From Campylobacterales bacterium (lineage in GTDB: Bacteria; Campylobacterota; Campylobacteria; Campylobacterales; Sulfurospirillaceae): a stretch of 64,000 bases of DNA. Position 1 is the first letter of the stretch, and each line of letters starts with the position of its first letter. Position numbers and translations under genes: made by a program. Of the stretch, positions 549-33,263 are shown one piece after another. The notes beneath the pieces are model-generated. The model saw only the letters and a program-made list of their open reading frames with translations, had not been told where the DNA came from and did not search any database. The stretch lies in the NCBI GenBank assembly GCA_016930915.1, contig JAFGFU010000013.1, positions 186,001 through 250,000 of the forward strand, given 5' to 3'.

Positions 549-1139
549 TTATTTCAAAGAGTTTATGACGATGTGCGCTAACTCCAACGCTCGTGCACGG
601 TGCGAAAAGGTTTTTTTCACGCTCTCGTCCAATTCACCTAGCGTTTTATCATAGCCGTAGGGCATAAACATCGGGTCATACCCAAAGCCGTTATTACCTC
701 TAGCTTCTGTTATTACATTGCCATGCATCCAGCCATGCACACAAAATTCACCCTTAGCACATACAAGAGCAATTGCTGCGGTGTAAAATGCGGGTGTTTT
801 TGCTACACCTTTTTCTTTCAAAGTTGCAATGAGTTTGTTTAAATTTGCTTCTGAAGTAGCTCCCACGCCCGCATAACGAGCACTGTAAATACCAGGTGTT
901 CCACCGAGTATGGGCACGCTAATGCCACTATCATCACTCAGCACCATAGCGTTTTTATCGCTCAGTTTTTCATACACGGCACGTGCTTTTATCAGCGCAT
1001 TTTCTTTAAACGTAACTCCCGTCTCTTCAATTTCAAAAGGCTCCATAATATCGCTGTATGCCACCACTTCATACTCGCTAATCCACGAGCGAAACTCTTT
1101 AACTTTGCCTTGATTGGACGTAGCTAATACAATTCTCAA
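549..1139 (-). CDS. rdgB: XTP/dITP pyrophosphatase (RdgB/HAM1 family)
   Basis: A 196-residue cytoplasmic enzyme that hydrolyses non-canonical purine triphosphates (dITP, XTP) to monophosphates and so keeps them out of DNA. Full family length with the expected motifs: the N-terminal phosphate-binding TSNQGK, the LSDDSG acidic motif near residue 68 followed by [24 protein letters not shown] near residue 150, and the C-terminal SHRARAL. The ATG at 1139 gives the family's usual start. It is followed, after about 100 bases, by the polyamine dehydrogenase-like gene and preceded by mltA, both on the same strand. Confidence 0.95.
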
Positions 1140-1187
1140 CGCTCATTCCCCCTGCTTATATACGCTTTTATTCTATCCATTTTTTGT

Positions 1188-2258
1188 TTAAAACTTCGGC
1201 TCCATAATCCACACTTCCAATGGCGCTTTAAGCTCACCAGCAACCCATTTGGCTCGTTCCCCATATCCCATAAACATATCCGCACGGTTTGGCCCCTTAA
1301 TCGCCCCACCCGTGTCTTGCGCAAAAACAAACTTTTCAACCTTATACTGAGGCGATTCACTCTTAAGTGCTAAAAGTGAGCCTAGAGGAATAAATGCTCT
1401 ATCCACTGCCACAGAACGCTCAGGCGTTAACACAACGCCCAAACTTCCCGTTGCTTTTTGCTCCATTTTGCGAAAGAAGACATAACTAGGGTTGGTATTT
1501 AAAAGTTCATCGATTTTAGAAGGATGCGCCTCAAGCCACGCTTTAATTTTCTGCATGGAGACCTCTTCAGGAGTTGCAAAAATTCCTCTATTGACCATCT
1601 CTCGTCCGAGTGATTTATACTTATGTCCGTTACTATCGGCGTAGCCTATAAACATCACTCGTCCATCTTCAAGCTCTACTCTGCCTGAGCCTTGTACTTC
1701 CATAAAAAAGAGATCTATTTTATCATCTACATAACACAAAATCTCTGCTTTCATCTTATGCTTGGCAATTTCTGCTCTCGTAAAATAAGGAACAACTTTC
1801 CCTTTTACTGAGCGCCCACGCATTTTTGCGTCATTTTCACCTACAATTTTAATCAAATCTTTGGGTTTGCCATAAACAGGATAAGCAAAGCGTTTACTCT
1901 TTTTCATACTTCCATGCAAAAGTGGTTCATAATAACCTGTAAGCATAGAGCGTTGCTCGTTGGGCTCAACCTTTTTAAGTACAAAAGCGTTTTGAAAAAA
2001 GGCTTTTGCATCCTTTACATGTAAAGATTGTTCACACACTTTTGCATAGACTTTTTGCGTCTGAGGAGCTTTACAATTCTCACGAAAAAGCATTAAAAGC
2101 TCATCAAAATTTTCCTCATGACTAAAGCGTTCAAAATGCTTATTTTGCTCTTGAAGCGTTACCACGAAAGCATCATCTTGTGATGTGGGAGAGAGTTTAG
2201 AAGCACAGCCAGAAAAAATTACCATCAATACTAACGAAGAAAAAATAAAATAGCGCAT
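1188..2258 (-). CDS. mltA: Membrane-bound lytic murein transglycosylase A
   Basis: A 356-residue lipoprotein that cleaves the glycan strands of peptidoglycan. Residues 1-20 form a signal peptide ending in a lipobox (IFSGC). The middle holds the MltA barrel domain (MLTGYYEPLLHGS, FFMEVQGSGRVEL, GYADSNGHKYKSLGREM) and the C-terminus the 3D domain with its aspartates (FAQDTGGAIKGPNRADMFMG). Length is normal. Anchoring in the outer membrane is inferred from the family. One TTACATGTAA palindrome (2015-2024) is read as Ser-Leu-His-Val-Lys in the less conserved N-terminal third. The 49-base gap to rdgB suggests possible co-transcription. Confidence 0.93.
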   Translation of the reverse strand: MRYFIFSSLVLMVIFSGCASKLSPTSQDDAFVVTLQEQNKHFERFSHEENFDELLMLFRENCKAPQTQKVYAKVCEQSLHVKDAKAFFQNAFVLKKVEPNEQRSMLTGYYEPLLHGSMKKSKRFAYPVYGKPKDLIKIVGENDAKMRGRSVKGKVVPYFTRAEIAKHKMKAEILCYVDDKIDLFFMEVQGSGRVELEDGRVMFIGYADSNGHKYKSLGREMVNRGIFATPEEVSMQKIKAWLEAHPSKIDELLNTNPSYVFFRKMEQKATGSLGVVLTPERSVAVDRAFIPLGSLLALKSESPQYKVEKFVFAQDTGGAIKGPNRADMFMGYGERAKWVAGELKAPLEVWIMEPKF

Positions 2259-2270
2259 TTACATCCATTG

Positions 2271-2293
2271 AAAAGAGGCACTAAAAGCGCCTC
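2271..2293 (-). terminator. Probable terminator of the small gene at 2300-2473
   Basis: GAGGC/GCCTC inverted repeat with an A/T-rich loop, followed on the minus strand by TTTTC. It sits between the stop of the 57-residue gene and the start of mltA. Confidence 0.45.
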
Positions 2294-2299
2294 ATTAAG

Positions 2300-2473
2300 T
2301 TAATTAAACCTTTTTTTAAGCGACGCAAGTTCTGCTTTAATCGCATCGAACTCTGCATAAATTTTGTCGTTTTCCATCACACTCCAGCGATTGAAACCAA
2401 TGTAATAAAGCGTAATAAAATACGCCAACACGCATCCAGCGAAACCTAAAATATGTGTAATATTAAATTCCAT
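2300..2473 (-). CDS. Small single-pass membrane protein, 57 residues
   Basis: ATG at 2473 with a good ribosome site (AAAGGAG, 6 bases before) and stop TAA at 2300. The translation begins MEFNITHILGFAGCVLAYF, one hydrophobic helix (about residues 7-26), then a charged amphipathic tail ending in FDAIKAELASLKKRFN, which could form a short coiled coil. No enzyme motif and no family I recognise. The gene is supported by its ribosome site, membrane-helix-plus-coil layout and following terminator hairpin, in what would otherwise be a 360-base gap. It may work as a small inner-membrane adaptor, but that is a guess. Confidence 0.65.
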   Translation of the reverse strand: MEFNITHILGFAGCVLAYFITLYYIGFNRWSVMENDKIYAEFDAIKAELASLKKRFN

Positions 2474-2621
2474 TACGACTCCTTTGTTTGAGTACTTTAA
2501 CTATTACGGATTATAACATAAAAGAAGCTTGAGCCAAGTTTGATTTTGAAATTTCATAGACTTTTCAAAGTTTAACAAAGGTAAAATCAACCGTGATTAA
2601 ATTTCGAGGAATAGTGTATTC

Positions 2622-3938
2622 ATGTTAAAAACCGTTTTCCCCCTAACCCTTATTATTTCGCTTCGTTTCTTAGGTCTTTTTATCGTCTTACCTGTGCTTT
2701 CTGTTTATGCGCTTCACTTAGAAGGTTCGAGTGAATTCTTAGTGGGCATTACCATTGGTGGATATGCCATTACCCAAATGTTTTTACAAATTCCCTTTGG
2801 GATACTCTCCGATAAAATTGGACGTAAAGTCAGCATTTTTATTGGCTTAGTTATCTTTATGATAGGCTCACTGGTGTGTGGTCTGAGTGAGAGCATTTAT
2901 GGCTTAATGGTAGGTCGTTTTTTACAAGGTGCTGGTGCGATTGGCGCTGTTGGAACAGCGATGATTAGTGATATGGTCAAAGAAGAAGTGCGTGCCAAAG
3001 CCATGGCAATTATGGGTGGAAGTATTGCGGCGAGTTTTGCGCTTTCCATGATGCTAGGCTCACTGATTGGTGGCTACTATGGTGTGGATAAACTCTTTTT
3101 TATGACCGCTCTTTTTTGTCTTTTAGCGATTATTATTCTCTACACTAAAGTTCCCAATCCTCCTAAAATTGTGCATCATTACGGTGCGGATGAGGCGGAG
3201 CTTAAACATATTTTTAAAGATAAAAATCTTATGAAAATGAACATCACCAACATGCTTCAAAAAGGGATGATGACCCTAGCGTTTATGGTGATTCCTATCA
3301 TTATGTTTAAAGAGTTTGGCTTTGAGAAAAAAGAGCTCTGGATGGTCTATCTGCCTGCCATGGTTTGTGGTGTACTTGCGATGGCACCTTCGGCTATTTT
3401 AGGAGAAAAGAAACACAAAGCCAAAGAAATGCTAATGATTGGCATTGTCTTTTTTGGTATCAGCTATGTGATGATGGGTTATGCCAAAAGTGCGCCATGG
3501 TTTATTGTAGGGGTTGTACTCTTTTTTATTGGTTTCAATATGCATGAACCGCTCATGCAATCCATGGCAAGTAAATACGCAAAGATTCATCAAAAAGGAG
3601 CAGCCCTTGGTGTTTTTAACTCTTTTGGCTATGCAGGAACTTTTATTGGTGGGGTATTTGGAGGCTTGTTTTTACAACACTTTGGCATTATGGAAATTGC
3701 TTGGGTTATTTTTATTGCCTGTATTTTGTGGCTTTTTCTCATAGCTTCTTTAAAAAATCCTAGTATCAATAAAAATCTTTACCTCCCCTTTGAAACCATT
3801 GATCTCACACGTATGCTACACCTCAGCCATGTGAAAGGGGTCGTGGAATGGTACAAAAACGAGAGTGAACAACTCTTAGTGGTCAAATACGACTCAGAAC
3901 TCACCGACAAAGAGACCATTTTAGCGGTTTTAGAATAA
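2622..3938 (+). CDS. Major facilitator superfamily transporter, YajR-like
   Basis: A 438-residue inner-membrane protein with 12 predicted helices. The MFS signature between helices 2 and 3 (GILSDKIGRKV) and the motif GRFLQGAGAIGAVG on helix 4 put it in the drug:H+ antiporter group. After the last helix there is a soluble C-terminal extension of about 60 residues (from NLYLPFETID to the end) with an alternating beta-alpha-beta look; YajR of E. coli carries a comparable ferredoxin-like domain there. The substrate is unknown. The stop is directly followed by the YqaA-like gene, suggesting co-transcription. Confidence 0.85.
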   Translation: MLKTVFPLTLIISLRFLGLFIVLPVLSVYALHLEGSSEFLVGITIGGYAITQMFLQIPFGILSDKIGRKVSIFIGLVIFMIGSLVCGLSESIYGLMVGRFLQGAGAIGAVGTAMISDMVKEEVRAKAMAIMGGSIAASFALSMMLGSLIGGYYGVDKLFFMTALFCLLAIIILYTKVPNPPKIVHHYGADEAELKHIFKDKNLMKMNITNMLQKGMMTLAFMVIPIIMFKEFGFEKKELWMVYLPAMVCGVLAMAPSAILGEKKHKAKEMLMIGIVFFGISYVMMGYAKSAPWFIVGVVLFFIGFNMHEPLMQSMASKYAKIHQKGAALGVFNSFGYAGTFIGGVFGGLFLQHFGIMEIAWVIFIACILWLFLIASLKNPSINKNLYLPFETIDLTRMLHLSHVKGVVEWYKNESEQLLVVKYDSELTDKETILAVLE

Positions 3939-5290: not shown

Positions 5291-5899
5291 CTAGGTTAAT
5301 TTCATCTCTTTTCGTATGCGTGAAAGTGCGACTTCCGTGATGCCAAGATACGAAGCAATGTGGTAATTTGCCACCACTTGCTCAATCATTGAATAGTCCT
5401 TTAGGAATTTTAGATAACGCTCTTTCGCACTCAAAAGCAAAAAATCCGCTTCCCTGCGCTCTTTTTTAACAATCAACCGCTCATATATGTGAAGCATCAA
5501 ATCGTTCCACTCTTTATGTTTTACACCAAGGGCTCTGAAGTCTTCATACGAAATACTCAATACCGTAAAGAAAGAGAGGGTTTCCACACAAAAAGGAGAG
5601 ACTTCGTCCTGCATTGACACCGAAGAAATGCTACTAAGCAAATGCCCTGGTTTTTCTGCAAACGATTTGTTAAACTCTTTGCCACTTTCGCTGATGTAGT
5701 AGTAGCGTGCCAACCCATCAATCAGAAAATAAAAATCTTTGACCTTATCTCCAATATCAAAAAGATGGGCACCTTTGGGAAAGGTTTTGAGGCTAAAGTA
5801 ACCTTTCGCCTCTTCCCATACAGGCGGTGAGATAGGTGATAGGTCGGAGAGAGTGTCATGCAATGTTGCAAGAGCGTTTTCAAGGGAAGAAGAGAGCAT
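5291..5899 (-). CDS. Crp/Fnr-family transcription regulator
   Basis: 202 residues with an N-terminal cyclic-nucleotide-type beta roll (FPKGAHLFDIGDKVKDFYFLIDG, residues about 35-60) and a C-terminal winged helix whose recognition helix is in IASYLGITEVALSRIRKE. There is no cysteine set for an Fnr Fe-S cluster near the N-terminus, and the phosphate-binding arginine of true cAMP receptors is not evident, so the ligand is unknown. ATG at 5899; a TATACAT sequence at 5914-5920 on the minus strand could be its -10. The regulated genes are not shown by the sequence. Confidence 0.85.
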   Translation of the reverse strand: MLSSSLENALATLHDTLSDLSPISPPVWEEAKGYFSLKTFPKGAHLFDIGDKVKDFYFLIDGLARYYYISESGKEFNKSFAEKPGHLLSSISSVSMQDEVSPFCVETLSFFTVLSISYEDFRALGVKHKEWNDLMLHIYERLIVKKERREADFLLLSAKERYLKFLKDYSMIEQVVANYHIASYLGITEVALSRIRKEMKLT

Positions 5900-29974: not shown

Positions 29975-30412
29975 ATGCGATTACTTGGCAACATCATCTG
30001 GTTTATTTTTGGCGGTGTTTTTATGGGTCTTTCGTGGTGGTTTTTTGGACTGATTGCACTCATAAGTATCGTCGGCATTCCATGGGCAAAGGCCTGTTTT
30101 GTCATCGGTCAATTTACCTTTTTTCCCTTTGGCAAAGAAGCCATTAGCCGAAAAGCACTGCACCAAAAAGAGGACATAGGCACAGGAACGCTAGGCTTTA
30201 TTGGCAATGTGATTTGGCTTATTTTTGCTGGGGTGTGGTTGGCTATTGGGCACATTTTATCCGCATTTGCATGTGCTATCACCATTATCGGCATTCCCTT
30301 TGCGATTCAGCATCTCAAACTCATCGGTATCTCTTTAGCACCCATTGGCATGACCATTGTCGATAAAGAAGTCGCCGATACACTGTATCAAAAAGAAAGA
30401 GAGTTGAAATGA
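29975..30412 (+). CDS. yccF: YccF-family inner-membrane protein
   Basis: About 145 residues. AAGGAGG lies before a double ATG (29972, 29975); the start MRLLGNIIWFIFGG is the family's. Two repeated YccF (DUF307) units: GNIIWFIFGGVFMGLSWWFFGLIALISIVGIPW and GNVIWLIFAGVWLAIGHILSAFACAITIIGIPF, each one hydrophobic hairpin ending in GIP(W/F). Function unknown. Overlaps the next gene by four bases. A palindrome lies upstream at 29912. Confidence 0.85.
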   Translation: MRLLGNIIWFIFGGVFMGLSWWFFGLIALISIVGIPWAKACFVIGQFTFFPFGKEAISRKALHQKEDIGTGTLGFIGNVIWLIFAGVWLAIGHILSAFACAITIIGIPFAIQHLKLIGISLAPIGMTIVDKEVADTLYQKERELK

Positions 30413-31719
30413 ACCATCTAAAATTTGTATTTTTTGGCGTAGGTGCAGTCAGCAGTGTTATGGCTCAGGCGTTATTTGAACTCTCCTCAAAGATGAAAGA
30501 AGGGGGAGCAACATTTGTATTTGTTGTAAGAAATCCATCCGTCATTCAAAAATACTTCTTTGCACACGATAAACTTCTTGAAGTTTCAAGCTTTTTGGAG
30601 ACTTCAGAATTTGAGAATATTTTCTCAAACCCTTTACACTATGAGCGCTATTTTAACGATGCTACGGTTTTTATCAATGCCTCCATTCCAGCGTTTAATC
30701 AACCCATTATGAAGCTAGCTCTCTTTTTTAAAGCCCATTATGCTGATTTGGCGAGCGATATTTATTCACATAAAATTCTAGAGACTTTGGCGTTTGAACA
30801 AGAAGGACTCCGCGAAGAGTTTGAAAAAAATGCTCTTTGTGCGCTCATCAATCTTGGCATTTCACCAGGCATCACCAATCTTTTGATAGGCGAGCGAATT
30901 GAGCATTTTCACAACCTTCCCCATAAAACCAAAATCAAAAAAATTGAGATATTTTTACTCGAAGACATTCGTTCAAAACAACTTGTTTTTTCATGGTCGC
31001 CCAGTGTTGCCATAGAAGAACTCTCCTTTAAACCCGCATTTTTTAACGAAAATAAACTGCAAAGGGTTGAGCCATTTTCTAACGATTTATCCTATGAGTT
31101 TCCTTATTTTAAAGGCGAGGTTGATGTTTACCCTGTGTTTCAAGAAGAGATTATCTCCTTAAAGCAAAGTTATCCCGATATTTCTGAAATACGCATGTAT
31201 GTTGGAGGCAATGAAATAGAATTGATGAAAAATCTCTATCAGCTCAATCTGCTTTCGCACAAATATTGCTTTGGGTATGAGGATTCGCAAGCATCTATTA
31301 ATACCATCATCAAAGAGGTCATCCCAAAGATGAAATCACCCGATGTCATAGCGTTCTATGTCAAGGAGAAGATTATTAAAGCAGCACAGTTTTGTGCCGT
31401 AGCGGAACTGAGTTTAGAAATCTGCCTTGGCGAGCACAAAGTCCACTCAAACGAACTGGTCGGTGTGCTGTTTGATAGCTACCTAGACCTTGCCAATACA
31501 CCCTACGCAGGTGCGACGTATGTCTCCTACCCCACGGGTATTGGGGCTGCTTTAACGCTTTTTTACACACTGGTTGATGAAAAAAAGATGTACGGGGTTA
31601 TTCCTAGCGAAAAGCTTCCAGCCCTCTTTGGCAATACATGGTGCGAGATGCTTAAAAGAGAACTAAGCATTTACAAAATTGGCTTGTTTCATCTGATGTC
31701 TCAAAGTGAAGGAAATTAG
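30409..31719 (+). CDS. Saccharopine-dehydrogenase-like NAD(P)-binding protein
   Basis: 436 residues. Begins FVFFGVGAVSSVMAQAL, a Rossmann G-x-G-x-x-S loop, and later has INASIPAFNQPIMKLALFFKAHYADLASDIYS and LINLGISPGITNLLIGE, which correspond to the catalytic-site stretches of the saccharopine dehydrogenase family. The C-terminal half carries the alpha/beta dimer domain with ISPG-type and GIGAALTLFYTL segments. It is not the same as the polyamine dehydrogenase at 1-449, from which it is clearly diverged. The substrate is unknown. Confidence 0.8.
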   Translation: MNHLKFVFFGVGAVSSVMAQALFELSSKMKEGGATFVFVVRNPSVIQKYFFAHDKLLEVSSFLETSEFENIFSNPLHYERYFNDATVFINASIPAFNQPIMKLALFFKAHYADLASDIYSHKILETLAFEQEGLREEFEKNALCALINLGISPGITNLLIGERIEHFHNLPHKTKIKKIEIFLLEDIRSKQLVFSWSPSVAIEELSFKPAFFNENKLQRVEPFSNDLSYEFPYFKGEVDVYPVFQEEIISLKQSYPDISEIRMYVGGNEIELMKNLYQLNLLSHKYCFGYEDSQASINTIIKEVIPKMKSPDVIAFYVKEKIIKAAQFCAVAELSLEICLGEHKVHSNELVGVLFDSYLDLANTPYAGATYVSYPTGIGAALTLFYTLVDEKKMYGVIPSEKLPALFGNTWCEMLKRELSIYKIGLFHLMSQSEGN

Positions 31720-31767
31720 GGGTGGGGTGATTGGGCACTTATGTTTACTAATTAGCTTTTTATAATG

Positions 31768-31781
31768 TTTCTTGGTAAAAT
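31768..31781 (+). promoter_or_regulatory. 14-base sequence shared by both genes of the ATPase/STAS-like module (left copy)
   Basis: TTTCTTGGTAAAAT, about 30 bases before the ATPase start. The exact reverse complement is at 33168-33181, so each copy points toward the module. It contains TG-G-TAAAAT, an extended -10 pattern, so it may be a promoter; alternatively the pair marks inverted ends of a small inserted segment. Confidence 0.45.
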
Positions 31782-31810
31782 GTGATTAAACTAAATCGTA
31801 TGAGAGACCA

Positions 31811-32692
31811 ATGCCAAATTACACATACAATGGAACATTAGAACTCAAATTCTCTAATATTCAAGAACAAATAGACTTTTTTTCAGAATCAAATTTTTCA
31901 GATATGTCTAGTGATATTTCATGGTCAGAACCTATCGGTACTGTCATGTTAAAGGCTCATGCCGAGGCACATGGGATTTCTGTTGAAACAATTCCTTGTA
32001 ATAGCTATATGAGAAATATGCTTACATTTGGTATTAACCACCAGCCAACCAAACCTACATACACACCTGTTGTACAAATTATTAGCCGCTCTCAAACTGA
32101 ACACATTAGAAACGCTCTTGTATCAACCATCATGCGCAATTTCTCAGCCATATCTCCAACTAACCAAACTGACTTACGAAAATATCTCAATCATATGTTT
32201 AGCGAGCTATTAAATAATGTATCGGATCATTCATTTAGTGATATTGGCGGTTTTGCAATGGCGCAATATTATGAAACCCACAAAAAAGTACAGTTTGCGA
32301 TTGCAGACAAAGGATGTGGTTTTTTAGCCAACATTCAGGCTAAATTTCCAGAGATTCAAACTGAAGAAGAAGCCATTTTAAAAGCTCTGGGAAAAGCTGT
32401 GACTGCTTCAAAAAATTATGTGTACGGACAATCAAGAAATGCTGGTTATGGGCTTTATACACTTGAGACTATTCTAAATCACTCTAAAGGAAGCCTTATT
32501 ATTATTTCCAATGATACAATGCTCAAAATGACAGAAGGAGAAAAAATTATTTATAAATTGCCTCTTTCTTGGAATGGCGTCGTTGTAGCATTTGAGTTTT
32601 TTGAAGAAAATACAAATTATGATTTTGAACAAATTCAACGTATTTGGGGAGCTGTTGAAGAAGGAGAAGAGGAAGAAGATTTCTTCCTCTAA
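31811..32692 (+). CDS. GHKL-type ATPase (histidine-kinase/anti-sigma-like), stand-alone
   Basis: 293 residues. An N-terminal alpha/beta domain (residues 1-90) with no recognised match precedes a GHKL ATPase domain: N-box MFSELLNNVSDHS near residue 137, G1 box IADKGCGFL near residue 180, and G2 box NAGYGLYTLE near residue 222. There is no phosphorylated histidine or dimer domain, so it is not a sensor kinase; the form is closer to RsbW/SpoIIAB-like switches. The tail is highly acidic (VEEGEEEEDFF). AT-rich, no TTACATGTAA. It converges with a STAS-like gene five bases away, suggesting a two-protein switch. Confidence 0.75.
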   Translation: MPNYTYNGTLELKFSNIQEQIDFFSESNFSDMSSDISWSEPIGTVMLKAHAEAHGISVETIPCNSYMRNMLTFGINHQPTKPTYTPVVQIISRSQTEHIRNALVSTIMRNFSAISPTNQTDLRKYLNHMFSELLNNVSDHSFSDIGGFAMAQYYETHKKVQFAIADKGCGFLANIQAKFPEIQTEEEAILKALGKAVTASKNYVYGQSRNAGYGLYTLETILNHSKGSLIIISNDTMLKMTEGEKIIYKLPLSWNGVVVAFEFFEENTNYDFEQIQRIWGAVEEGEEEEDFFL

Positions 32693-32697
32693 AAGCA

Positions 32698-32994
32698 TTA
32701 TGCAGAAATTTTTCTGCTTTCTCTTATTACTAAATTCAATAAAGATTTAATTTCTGCCGTTGCATTATTGAGCATAAGTTTATTTTTAATTAAATCAACG
32801 CCGTATGCTCTTACAAGAATTCCAACAATCTCATCTGCAAACGAATGAGATACGCCAGTCATACCGACAAAGTCAAGCGTTACTTTGTCACCTTTTTCTA
32901 AATTTATTTTCAGAGCTTCCCTAATTTTAACGCCACTGTCTCGTGAGCCAGCATAGTCAAAACCACCAATTTCATTTTTTACATTGATGACCAT
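32698..32994 (-). CDS. STAS-like (DUF4325) protein
   Basis: 98 residues from the ATG at 32994, which has AAAGGAG six bases before it; an upstream in-frame start at 33042 lacks one. FDYAGSRDSGVKIREALKINLEKGDKVTLDFVGMTGVSHSFADEIVG is the DUF4325 STAS-like signature (G-R-x-x-G-x-x-I-R, LDF, FADE). Such proteins occur beside or fused to GHKL ATPases, and by analogy with SpoIIAA/RsbV may be the switch partner. Here the partner gene is convergent, an unusual arrangement. Confidence 0.8.
   Translation of the reverse strand: MVINVKNEIGGFDYAGSRDSGVKIREALKINLEKGDKVTLDFVGMTGVSHSFADEIVGILVRAYGVDLIKNKLMLNNATAEIKSLLNLVIRESRKISA
32702..32717 (+). terminator. Terminator-like hairpin after the ATPase gene
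   Basis: GCAGAAA-TT-TTTCTGC followed by TTTCTC on the plus strand. It lies inside the last codons of the opposing STAS-like gene, so the two genes share this stretch. Modest stem of seven base pairs. Confidence 0.4.
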
Positions 32995-33167
32995 AATAGC
33001 TCCTTTCATTATAAAAATTTCAACACTTTTTAAGGTGTGCACAACGAATTATAACACAAAAGCAACCAAAATAGTTGAAATTATTATCTCAAAACCAGGA
33101 ATTAGCAAAGGCTAGCTCAAAGCTAAATTTTTAATTTTTAACAGTCCAATTCAAAAAACAAATTCAA

Positions 33168-33181
33168 TTTTACCAAGAAAA
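33168..33181 (-). promoter_or_regulatory. 14-base sequence shared by both genes of the ATPase/STAS-like module (right copy)
   Basis: Reads TTTCTTGGTAAAAT on the minus strand, identical to 31768-31781 on the plus strand, and points to the STAS-like gene 174 bases further on. The rest of 32995-33263 is AT-rich and gene-free, with a minus-strand TATAAT near 33050 and a palindrome copy at 33186. Confidence 0.45.
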
Positions 33182-33263
33182 ATCTTTACATGTAACTTCC
33201 TCTTTTTTCTTCCTTCTAACCTTTTCTGTGATAGAGTGTGCGTGAAATTTTCAAGGAAAAACC

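Follow-up and report, generated by a model that had tools for sequence, protein, structure and literature searches.

A conserved, mobile pair of convergent genes predicted to encode a variant of the VapKSC/CapKS class of kinase-STAS switches

Gene content and transcription signals of the locus

The window (the whole 64-kb stretch of DNA analysed here) carries two convergent genes, which we call K and S. K (31811-32692, + strand) encodes a protein of 293 residues with a putative VapK-like N-terminal domain followed by a GHKL kinase domain, an assignment based on matches to HATPase_c and phrog_3364 and on a SpoIIAB-like fold. S (32698-32994, - strand) encodes a DUF4325 STAS-like protein of 98 residues, assigned through Pfam and the VapS structure PDB 9z7o. 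The genes lie tail to tail with 5 bases separating their stops, just as a first-pass annotation of this DNA had read them. For S we preferred the ATG at 32994 over the starts at 33042 (the listed open reading frame) and 33009, because AAGGAG precedes it and two relatives keep the same start. The neighbours of the pair are a saccharopine-dehydrogenase-like gene (30409-31719) and an EamA gene, and no recognised defence gene was found beside it in the list of open reading frames or in Pfam searches of the flanks.

An exact 14-base inverted repeat had also been reported around the pair, and both copies are present: TTTCTTGGTAAAAT occurs at 31768-31781 on the + strand (left arm) and at 33167-33180 on the - strand (right arm), each pointing inward. 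The two genes had further been called AT-rich and free of TTACATGTAA. Their GC contents are 34.8% and 33.7%, compared with 39.0% for the window, and no TTACATGTAA lies between the arms, the copy at 33186 being just beyond the right one. As a separate observation, this palindrome is found at 42 places in the 64 kb (for example 290, 6088, 34137 and 63577) and recurs in related genomes; a literature search with the string returned papers that are unrelated by title among the matches listed.

Terminator-like hairpins lie 3' of K within the end of S (32702-32717, +) and 3' of S within the end of K (32668-32690, -), and the region of the pair holds 4 terminator-like sites compared with 0.9 in shuffled sequence. 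Placed inside the end of the opposite gene, such hairpins would limit antisense overlap of K and S. Upstream of S, TGTTATAAT (33048-33056, -) is kept in two relatives (loci L020 and L021) and was judged against the extended -10 consensus; it is a better candidate than the right arm of the repeat for the promoter of S, and probably is that promoter.

The inverted repeat and the edges of the mobile module

The repeat had been put down either to the termini of an inserted segment or to a promoter element common to the two genes, and neither explanation withstood comparison with relatives. Loci L020 and L021 (genomes G005 and G016) carry the pair at a chromosomal site different from that of the window, and alignment with them by blastn and MAFFT delimits a conserved mobile module of ~1.34 kb (31750-33090) that is 93% identical to L020 and 86% identical to L021. 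The left arm lies inside this module, which begins 18 nt ahead of it; the right arm lies outside, 76 nt beyond the module's end. Its left edge agrees with L020, where the flank of other genomes ends at 3151-3166 and the module starts at 3165. The left arm is identical in both relatives, at a nearly equal distance from K, and the right arm occurs in neither; it is also missing around the same EamA gene in stretches from four relatives. A site without the pair, which the first-pass annotation had proposed to look for, exists in G013, where the neighbours are the same and the left flank matches up to 31724. The match to the right flank resumes near 33183 in G013 and near 33175, inside the right arm, in G022. 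Because the module ends at 33090 and the flanks resume at ~33175-33183, the interval from 33091 to ~33175 is filler, seen only in this genome.

An inserted element with the repeat at its ends would fit the rarity of the sequence, as the only two exact copies of TTTCTTGGTAAAAT in the 2.23-Mb genome (37 contigs; reversed control 0) flank the pair and point inward, and it would fit the position of the right arm at the point where homology to the EamA leader of relatives begins. Such an element is hardly credible given that the module shared between the two sites begins before the left arm and stops at 33090, that relatives have the left arm only, and that window-wide the repeat is no commoner than chance: exact inverted 14-mers 200-2000 nt apart, ACATGT palindromes aside, number 2 in the window compared with a simulated mean of 1.1, and TTTCTTGGTAAAAT with up to 2 mismatches has 3 matches in the window compared with 2.9 expected. 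Restricted to these two upstream regions, the repeat has P ~0.001, a value uncorrected for the window's many gene pairs. A transposable element with terminal inverted repeats was ruled out in the same way, the right arm being outside the mobile segment.

The alternative in which the arms bind one regulator, or both act as promoters in this lineage, draws on their inward-pointing, extended -10-like sequences and on a -35-like GTTACA located 18 nt before the hexamer of the right arm. We regard it as very unlikely, because the right arm lies 173 nt before the S start and is not conserved, because the conserved promoter-like site TGTTATAAT is nearer to S, and because promoter-like sites in the region are no commoner than in shuffled sequence. 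The 14-mer is not a sequence of many promoters, an objection that had been foreseen: the 24 genomes of the genus hold 12 exact copies in 10 genomes (reversed control 5), of which 3 are left arms, 1 is a right arm and 8 lie elsewhere, so that 4 are at this module. The left arm contains TGGTAAAAT, which resembles the extended -10 consensus, and is best read as the probable promoter of K. Judged by these alignments, the arms do not delimit the mobile unit and are not conserved together, and the repeat is not part of the switch discussed below.

Identity of the K and S proteins

Two DNA-damage-responsive kinase-STAS switches, VapK-VapS-VapC and CapK-CapS, have recently been described (PMC13373217, EMBO J, June 2026). 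VapKSC of Escherichia sp. E4736 consists of the kinase VapK, the STAS antitoxin VapS and the PIN RNase VapC, and protects against a phage. The tail of VapS blocks VapC, a block abolished by the substitution of S48 with Glu, and VapS without its tail fails to neutralise VapC. CapK is activated by single-stranded DNA (ssDNA), for which W68 is needed, and phosphorylates CapS; CBASS, Bub and other operons are under the control of these two. VapK, according to the same paper, has no N-terminal HTH (all PMC13373217). The words "convergent", "orientation", "SSB" and "acidic" are absent from PMC13373217, and a literature search for VapKSC found no paper beyond it; DUF4325 is mentioned in two further papers.

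K matches HATPase_c of Pfam with E=4.5e-4, below the cut-off of the family, and phrog_3364 with E=1.1e-31. When a structural model of K (of modest quality, with pLDDT 62 from a five-row alignment) was compared with solved folds, SpoIIAB entries took ranks 1-5 with Z scores of 12.2, 11.9, 11.9, 11.6 and 11.6, followed by RsbW-type chains at 9.4 and by histidine kinases from 8.9 down. S matches DUF4325 above the Pfam cut-off (E=3.9e-13). Escherichia VapS (PDB 9z7o) is its one plausible PDB relative by sequence, found with E=0.0027 by S alone and with 1.5e-6 by a profile of seven S proteins of the convergent family described below. In the fold ranking of the S model (also modest, with pLDDT 71 from a three-row alignment) RsbV, RsbS and stressosome chains stand high, with Z scores of at most 5.9 and unrelated folds close; the VapS chain is absent among the fold rows shown, from which we draw nothing. 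The SpoIIAB-like model of K and the VapS match of S agree with the earlier suggestion that the two proteins are the halves of a partner switch.

Other profile collections gave less. PADLOC-DB labels both K (E 3e-6) and S (7.6e-7) as "DrmA", and since the two match different parts of this 1750-residue profile, a DISARM system was not inferred. A search of NCBIfam with K and S gave just weak matches to unrelated families.

A family of convergent K-S pairs

Searches for K used the single protein against 199 relatives and profiles against 397 phylum genomes and 398 order genomes, these sets overlapping. The best matches are 11 K proteins, the window included, every one of which is encoded convergently with an S (DUF4325) gene (genomes G000, G005, G016, G082, G116, G130, G150, G306, G469, G500 and G523; E <=1.3e-75 for all 11 in the profile search of the 398 order genomes). 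Stop codons overlap by 4 nt in 7 of the 11 pairs and are separated by 5, 9, 6 and 0 nt in G000, G005, G016 and G082. The closest named relative of the pair, at 94% identity, is in Sulfurospirillum sp. UBA1314 (L019), the sole locus from its contig scan. The next-best classes of K are arranged otherwise: both genes on one strand with S first (G202, G274 and G373; the S-before-K type), K-S-PIN operons (G004, G015, G033, G254, G261, G339 and G460), and a type IIG restriction-modification (R-M) gene followed by K-S (G028, and G031 with a putative enzyme of this type).

That the two families occur together had been made a point to check, and they do. DUF4325 gave 33 matches in 30 of the 397 phylum genomes (one, on contig C49 of G373, was left out and two others were covered via L121 and L021), and an open reading frame matching the K profile is present at 23 of 30 DUF4325 loci. 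The other 7 comprise three S genes without K and four with other neighbours. Same-strand K-S pairs without an adjoining PIN gene were seen on a Pseudomonas plasmid, a Leptospira plasmid and Bacteroides and Marinitoga phages. Scans of viral contigs with the K of a Bacteroides phage and of a Coprococcus phage gave 5 and 2 loci, respectively; scans of viral contigs with A1, A2, the L109 K and the L105 vapK product gave no confirmed relative.

In the K tree the convergent proteins group with those of the S-before-K type in a single clade (support 97/99) apart from vapK (100/99), and the convergent K alone form one side of a branch with weak support (54/14). In the S tree the convergent S form one clade (93/88), which includes an orphan S of G075, apart from vapS (99/99). 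We read the K-S pair as a distinct, conserved and mobile variant of the recently described class of kinase-STAS switches.

Conserved residues and protein tails

The ATP-site residues N136, D166, G168, G212 and G214 of K are invariant in all 11 convergent K proteins. The N-terminus of K aligns with the vapK rows, and W38 (codon 31922-31924, +), also invariant in 11 of 11, falls in the column where the VapK-like rows have W or F. We infer from this alignment that W38 is equivalent to W68 of CapK and F54 of VapK.

The last ten residues of K (32660-32689, +) form an acidic-aromatic tip that resembles the end of single-stranded DNA-binding protein (SSB). The window tail, EEGEEEEDFFL, is similar to the SSB end of the same genome, DIDINDDEIPF, and each of the first nine convergent K tails is an acidic run that ends in a single aromatic residue or in two aromatics plus Leu. 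These nine tails were seen before the rule was written that we used for counting (at least four D/E in the last ten residues, a last residue F, Y, W or L, and an aromatic among the last three), so that the two loci found later are its only blind test. The rule selects 9 of the first 9 convergent K compared with 1 of 236 background proteins (at least 120 residues, from the window and 30 loci, in one pass), and both later K proteins, ending in KIDEEDDDFF and EEEEEEEDIF. Among other types it selects 2 of 3 S-before-K, the single G464 and 2 of 2 R-M-linked proteins, along with 1 of 6 vapK, none of the 4 proteins whose type includes a small protein as third component, and 1 of 5 phage or plasmid proteins. 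Residues 267-293 of the K model have pLDDT below 50. The SSB tip is known as a docking site for repair proteins (PMC7145534, PMC7913777), and by analogy the K tip may dock in the same manner or may cover K's own DNA groove. Neither this tail nor W38 is in itself proof that K binds DNA.

For S, the column of VapS S48 (chain residue 66 by our own count from the ungapped alignment and the chain length) falls on His50 of the window protein and on Gln in other genera, so that a phosphorylation site must be a neighbouring residue. In all 11 convergent S proteins this column (His or Gln at 50) is flanked by Ser or Thr at 49 and by Ser at 51, which makes S51 (codon 32842-32844, -), or S49, the candidate phospho-acceptor. 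In the S of G274, of the S-before-K type, these three positions are Ala-His-Ala, which rules out phosphorylation at this spot. The window S has no extra C-terminal residue, as is the case for 9 of the 11 convergent S (the other two have 2 and 4), compared with 15-19 in all seven vapS rows.

Comparison with known switches

Similar to VapKSC, the pair has a predicted kinase with a GHKL domain and a separate small DUF4325/STAS partner. The N-domain of the window K, which aligns with the vapK rows, may be STAS-like as in VapK, and W38 is a candidate for the aromatic residue at the proposed ssDNA column. It differs in that S is without the C-terminal inhibitory tail of VapS and has His or Gln instead of Ser/Thr in the acceptor column, in the SSB-like tip of K, which is rare among vapK rows, and in the convergence of its genes, vapKSC being a single same-strand operon. 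No VapC-like PIN gene lies beside the window pair. A VapC profile of six rows, which found 2 of 2 controls, matched nothing in the nine convergent genomes searched (all except G500 and G523), and a VapC partner acting in trans was ruled out on this result.

The pair could in principle be what is left of a vapKSC operon after loss of VapC, perhaps kept as an antitoxin against the vapKSC of others. One hot spot discussed below does hold K-S in some genomes and vapKSC in G004, and the lack of VapC in the genome would fit such a loss. We consider this origin unlikely, because the convergent S proteins form their own clade that is not nested in vapS, because they are missing the tail of 15-19 residues without which VapS is reported not to neutralise VapC (PMC13373217), and because the convergent layout and the ATP-site residues are retained between genera.

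CapKS likewise combines a GHKL kinase with a STAS substrate and is often near R-M systems. Unlike CapK, the window K has no N-terminal HTH, as judged by the Pfam search and by its alignment with the vapK rows, and S, which at 98 residues ends with its STAS domain and is too short to hold an HTH beside it, is without the winged HTH of CapS. CapKS also differs in its immune operon: since K and S converge and the flanks are the saccharopine-dehydrogenase-like and EamA genes, no immune operon lies downstream of the window pair in the same direction. By these comparisons the pair is neither VapKSC nor CapKS. SpoIIAB/SpoIIAA, RsbW/RsbV and RsbT/RsbS share the STAS partner and provide the best solved folds for the GHKL domain, and the window K differs from their kinases by an extra N-terminal domain of ~80 residues; the pair is also without a phosphatase or sigma factor gene, no adjoining sigma gene being recognised in the list of open reading frames or by Pfam. 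DUF4325 genes beside type IIG R-M genes or in operons of ATPase, STAS and small protein (L074, L076, L073, L078 and others) likewise pair an ATPase with DUF4325 and differ in same-strand order and in belonging to other K subfamilies.

Genomic context and the proposed switch

The pair is present in 3 of the 24 genomes of the genus. In G005 and G016 it lies between copper/cation efflux-like genes (by our own reading of the sequence) and a response regulator, a site whose anchoring gene occurs in 16 of the 24. Among 11 genomes in which the cargo of this site was viewed, G005 and G016 have K-S, G004 has vapKSC (L026) and G014 has DarT/DarG (L161, 2026-3390; Pfam DarT 3.2e-14, PADLOC DarG 1.6e-83); no defence gene was recognised in the cargo of the other seven. 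At the site of the window, G013 has a PIN_3 gene and a DUF6364 gene. Integrase pieces adjoin the pair in G116 and G130. In 3 of the 11 convergent loci, and only there, a restriction system is present: K directly follows type I hsdM-hsdS in G469, G523 and G500 (L100, L186 and L187), with hsdR beyond S in G469 and G523 and with a 4-nt overlap between the hsdS stop and the K start in G500. Type I R-M, vapKSC, DarT/DarG and PIN genes thus occur at K-S loci or sites, a defence context of the kind in which the first-pass annotation had proposed to search for the pair. From these positions, the pair appears to spread as ~1.34-kb cargo of defence hot spots and to be sometimes attached to type I restriction genes. 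As a separate observation, the saccharopine-dehydrogenase-like neighbour is reduced to pieces in G013 (L069, around 5304-5390).

A PP2C phosphatase was considered as a further component because a PP2C-kinase fusion lies beside K in G082; it was set aside because no other locus has one. The gene next to that fusion looks by eye like one of nitrate assimilation.

These data bear on whether the pair could instead be a general stress or sigma-factor switch of the RsbT/RsbS or RsbW/RsbV kind, working with a chromosomal partner and unrelated to phage defence. Such a role would be in keeping with SpoIIAB, RsbW, RsbV and RsbS as the closest solved folds and with the 8 of 11 loci that have no adjoining restriction system. 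We find it doubtful, as the pair is patchy and mobile, with two sites in the genus and integrase pieces beside two of its relatives, and as its nearest relatives in sequence are VapK and VapS and not Rsb proteins.

On balance we favour the reading that K and S form a stand-alone partner-switch module carried as defence cargo, in which K is the kinase, S its substrate and ssDNA the switching signal. K would be a serine/threonine kinase of the SpoIIAB/VapK kind, an activity suggested by analogy with these proteins, and S its STAS-domain substrate. By the same analogy, here with VapK and CapK, ssDNA, whether a product of damage, of phage replication or of restriction, would bind the groove between the N-domain and the GHKL domain beside W38 and activate K. 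Activated K would then phosphorylate S at S51 or S49, and phosphorylated S would free or capture a partner. This partner would be encoded outside the module and would not be a VapC of the vapKSC kind. A role in defence is suggested by the company the pair keeps at its sites.

A more specific proposal, which we put forward tentatively, is that the convergent pairs constitute a third, effector-less class of ssDNA-sensing kinase/STAS switches arranged tail to tail, in which the K tip docks on SSB-binding repair proteins or mimics ssDNA. As a mimic, the tip would occupy the DNA groove of K and block it until displaced by genuine ssDNA. A switch of this class would signal damage from restriction or replication directly to a host protein, with no dedicated toxin in between.

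The 2026 work on VapKSC and CapKS established that kinase-STAS pairs are able to relay DNA damage to a toxin or a promoter (PMC13373217). The convergent family looks like a switch of this kind to which neither output is attached, and its partner, once found, would reveal how damage from restriction or replication is passed on to host physiology. Through the SSB-like tip, such kinases may have a simple means of finding or sensing ssDNA.

Other DUF4325 systems

The searches also brought up DUF4325 genes of other kinds. A separate system occurs in several genera (L073, 7247-8278; L078, 6214-8012; L134, 345-2200; L136, L113 and others) and combines an ATPase with a long basic N-terminus and an S with a PGPRY...SGEEFR-like motif; at several loci its third gene encodes a small protein whose N-terminus includes a hydrophobic stretch. 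In G016, which also has a convergent pair, L126 (1468-2511, -) encodes a K-S-type fusion of 347 residues, with an HTH-like start (by eye) followed by a GHKL ATPase and DUF4325. In L121 of G261 (878-3083) a GSR-type S is followed without interruption by a shortened K, a vapS and a PIN gene, and the locus looks as if vapKSC was built into an S-K operon. GSR-type S genes stand without a recognisable adjoining K at L132, L133 and L118 (G286, G355 and G075). Finally, L107 of G350 (640-942) consists of broken K-like pieces with in-frame stops, a decayed copy.
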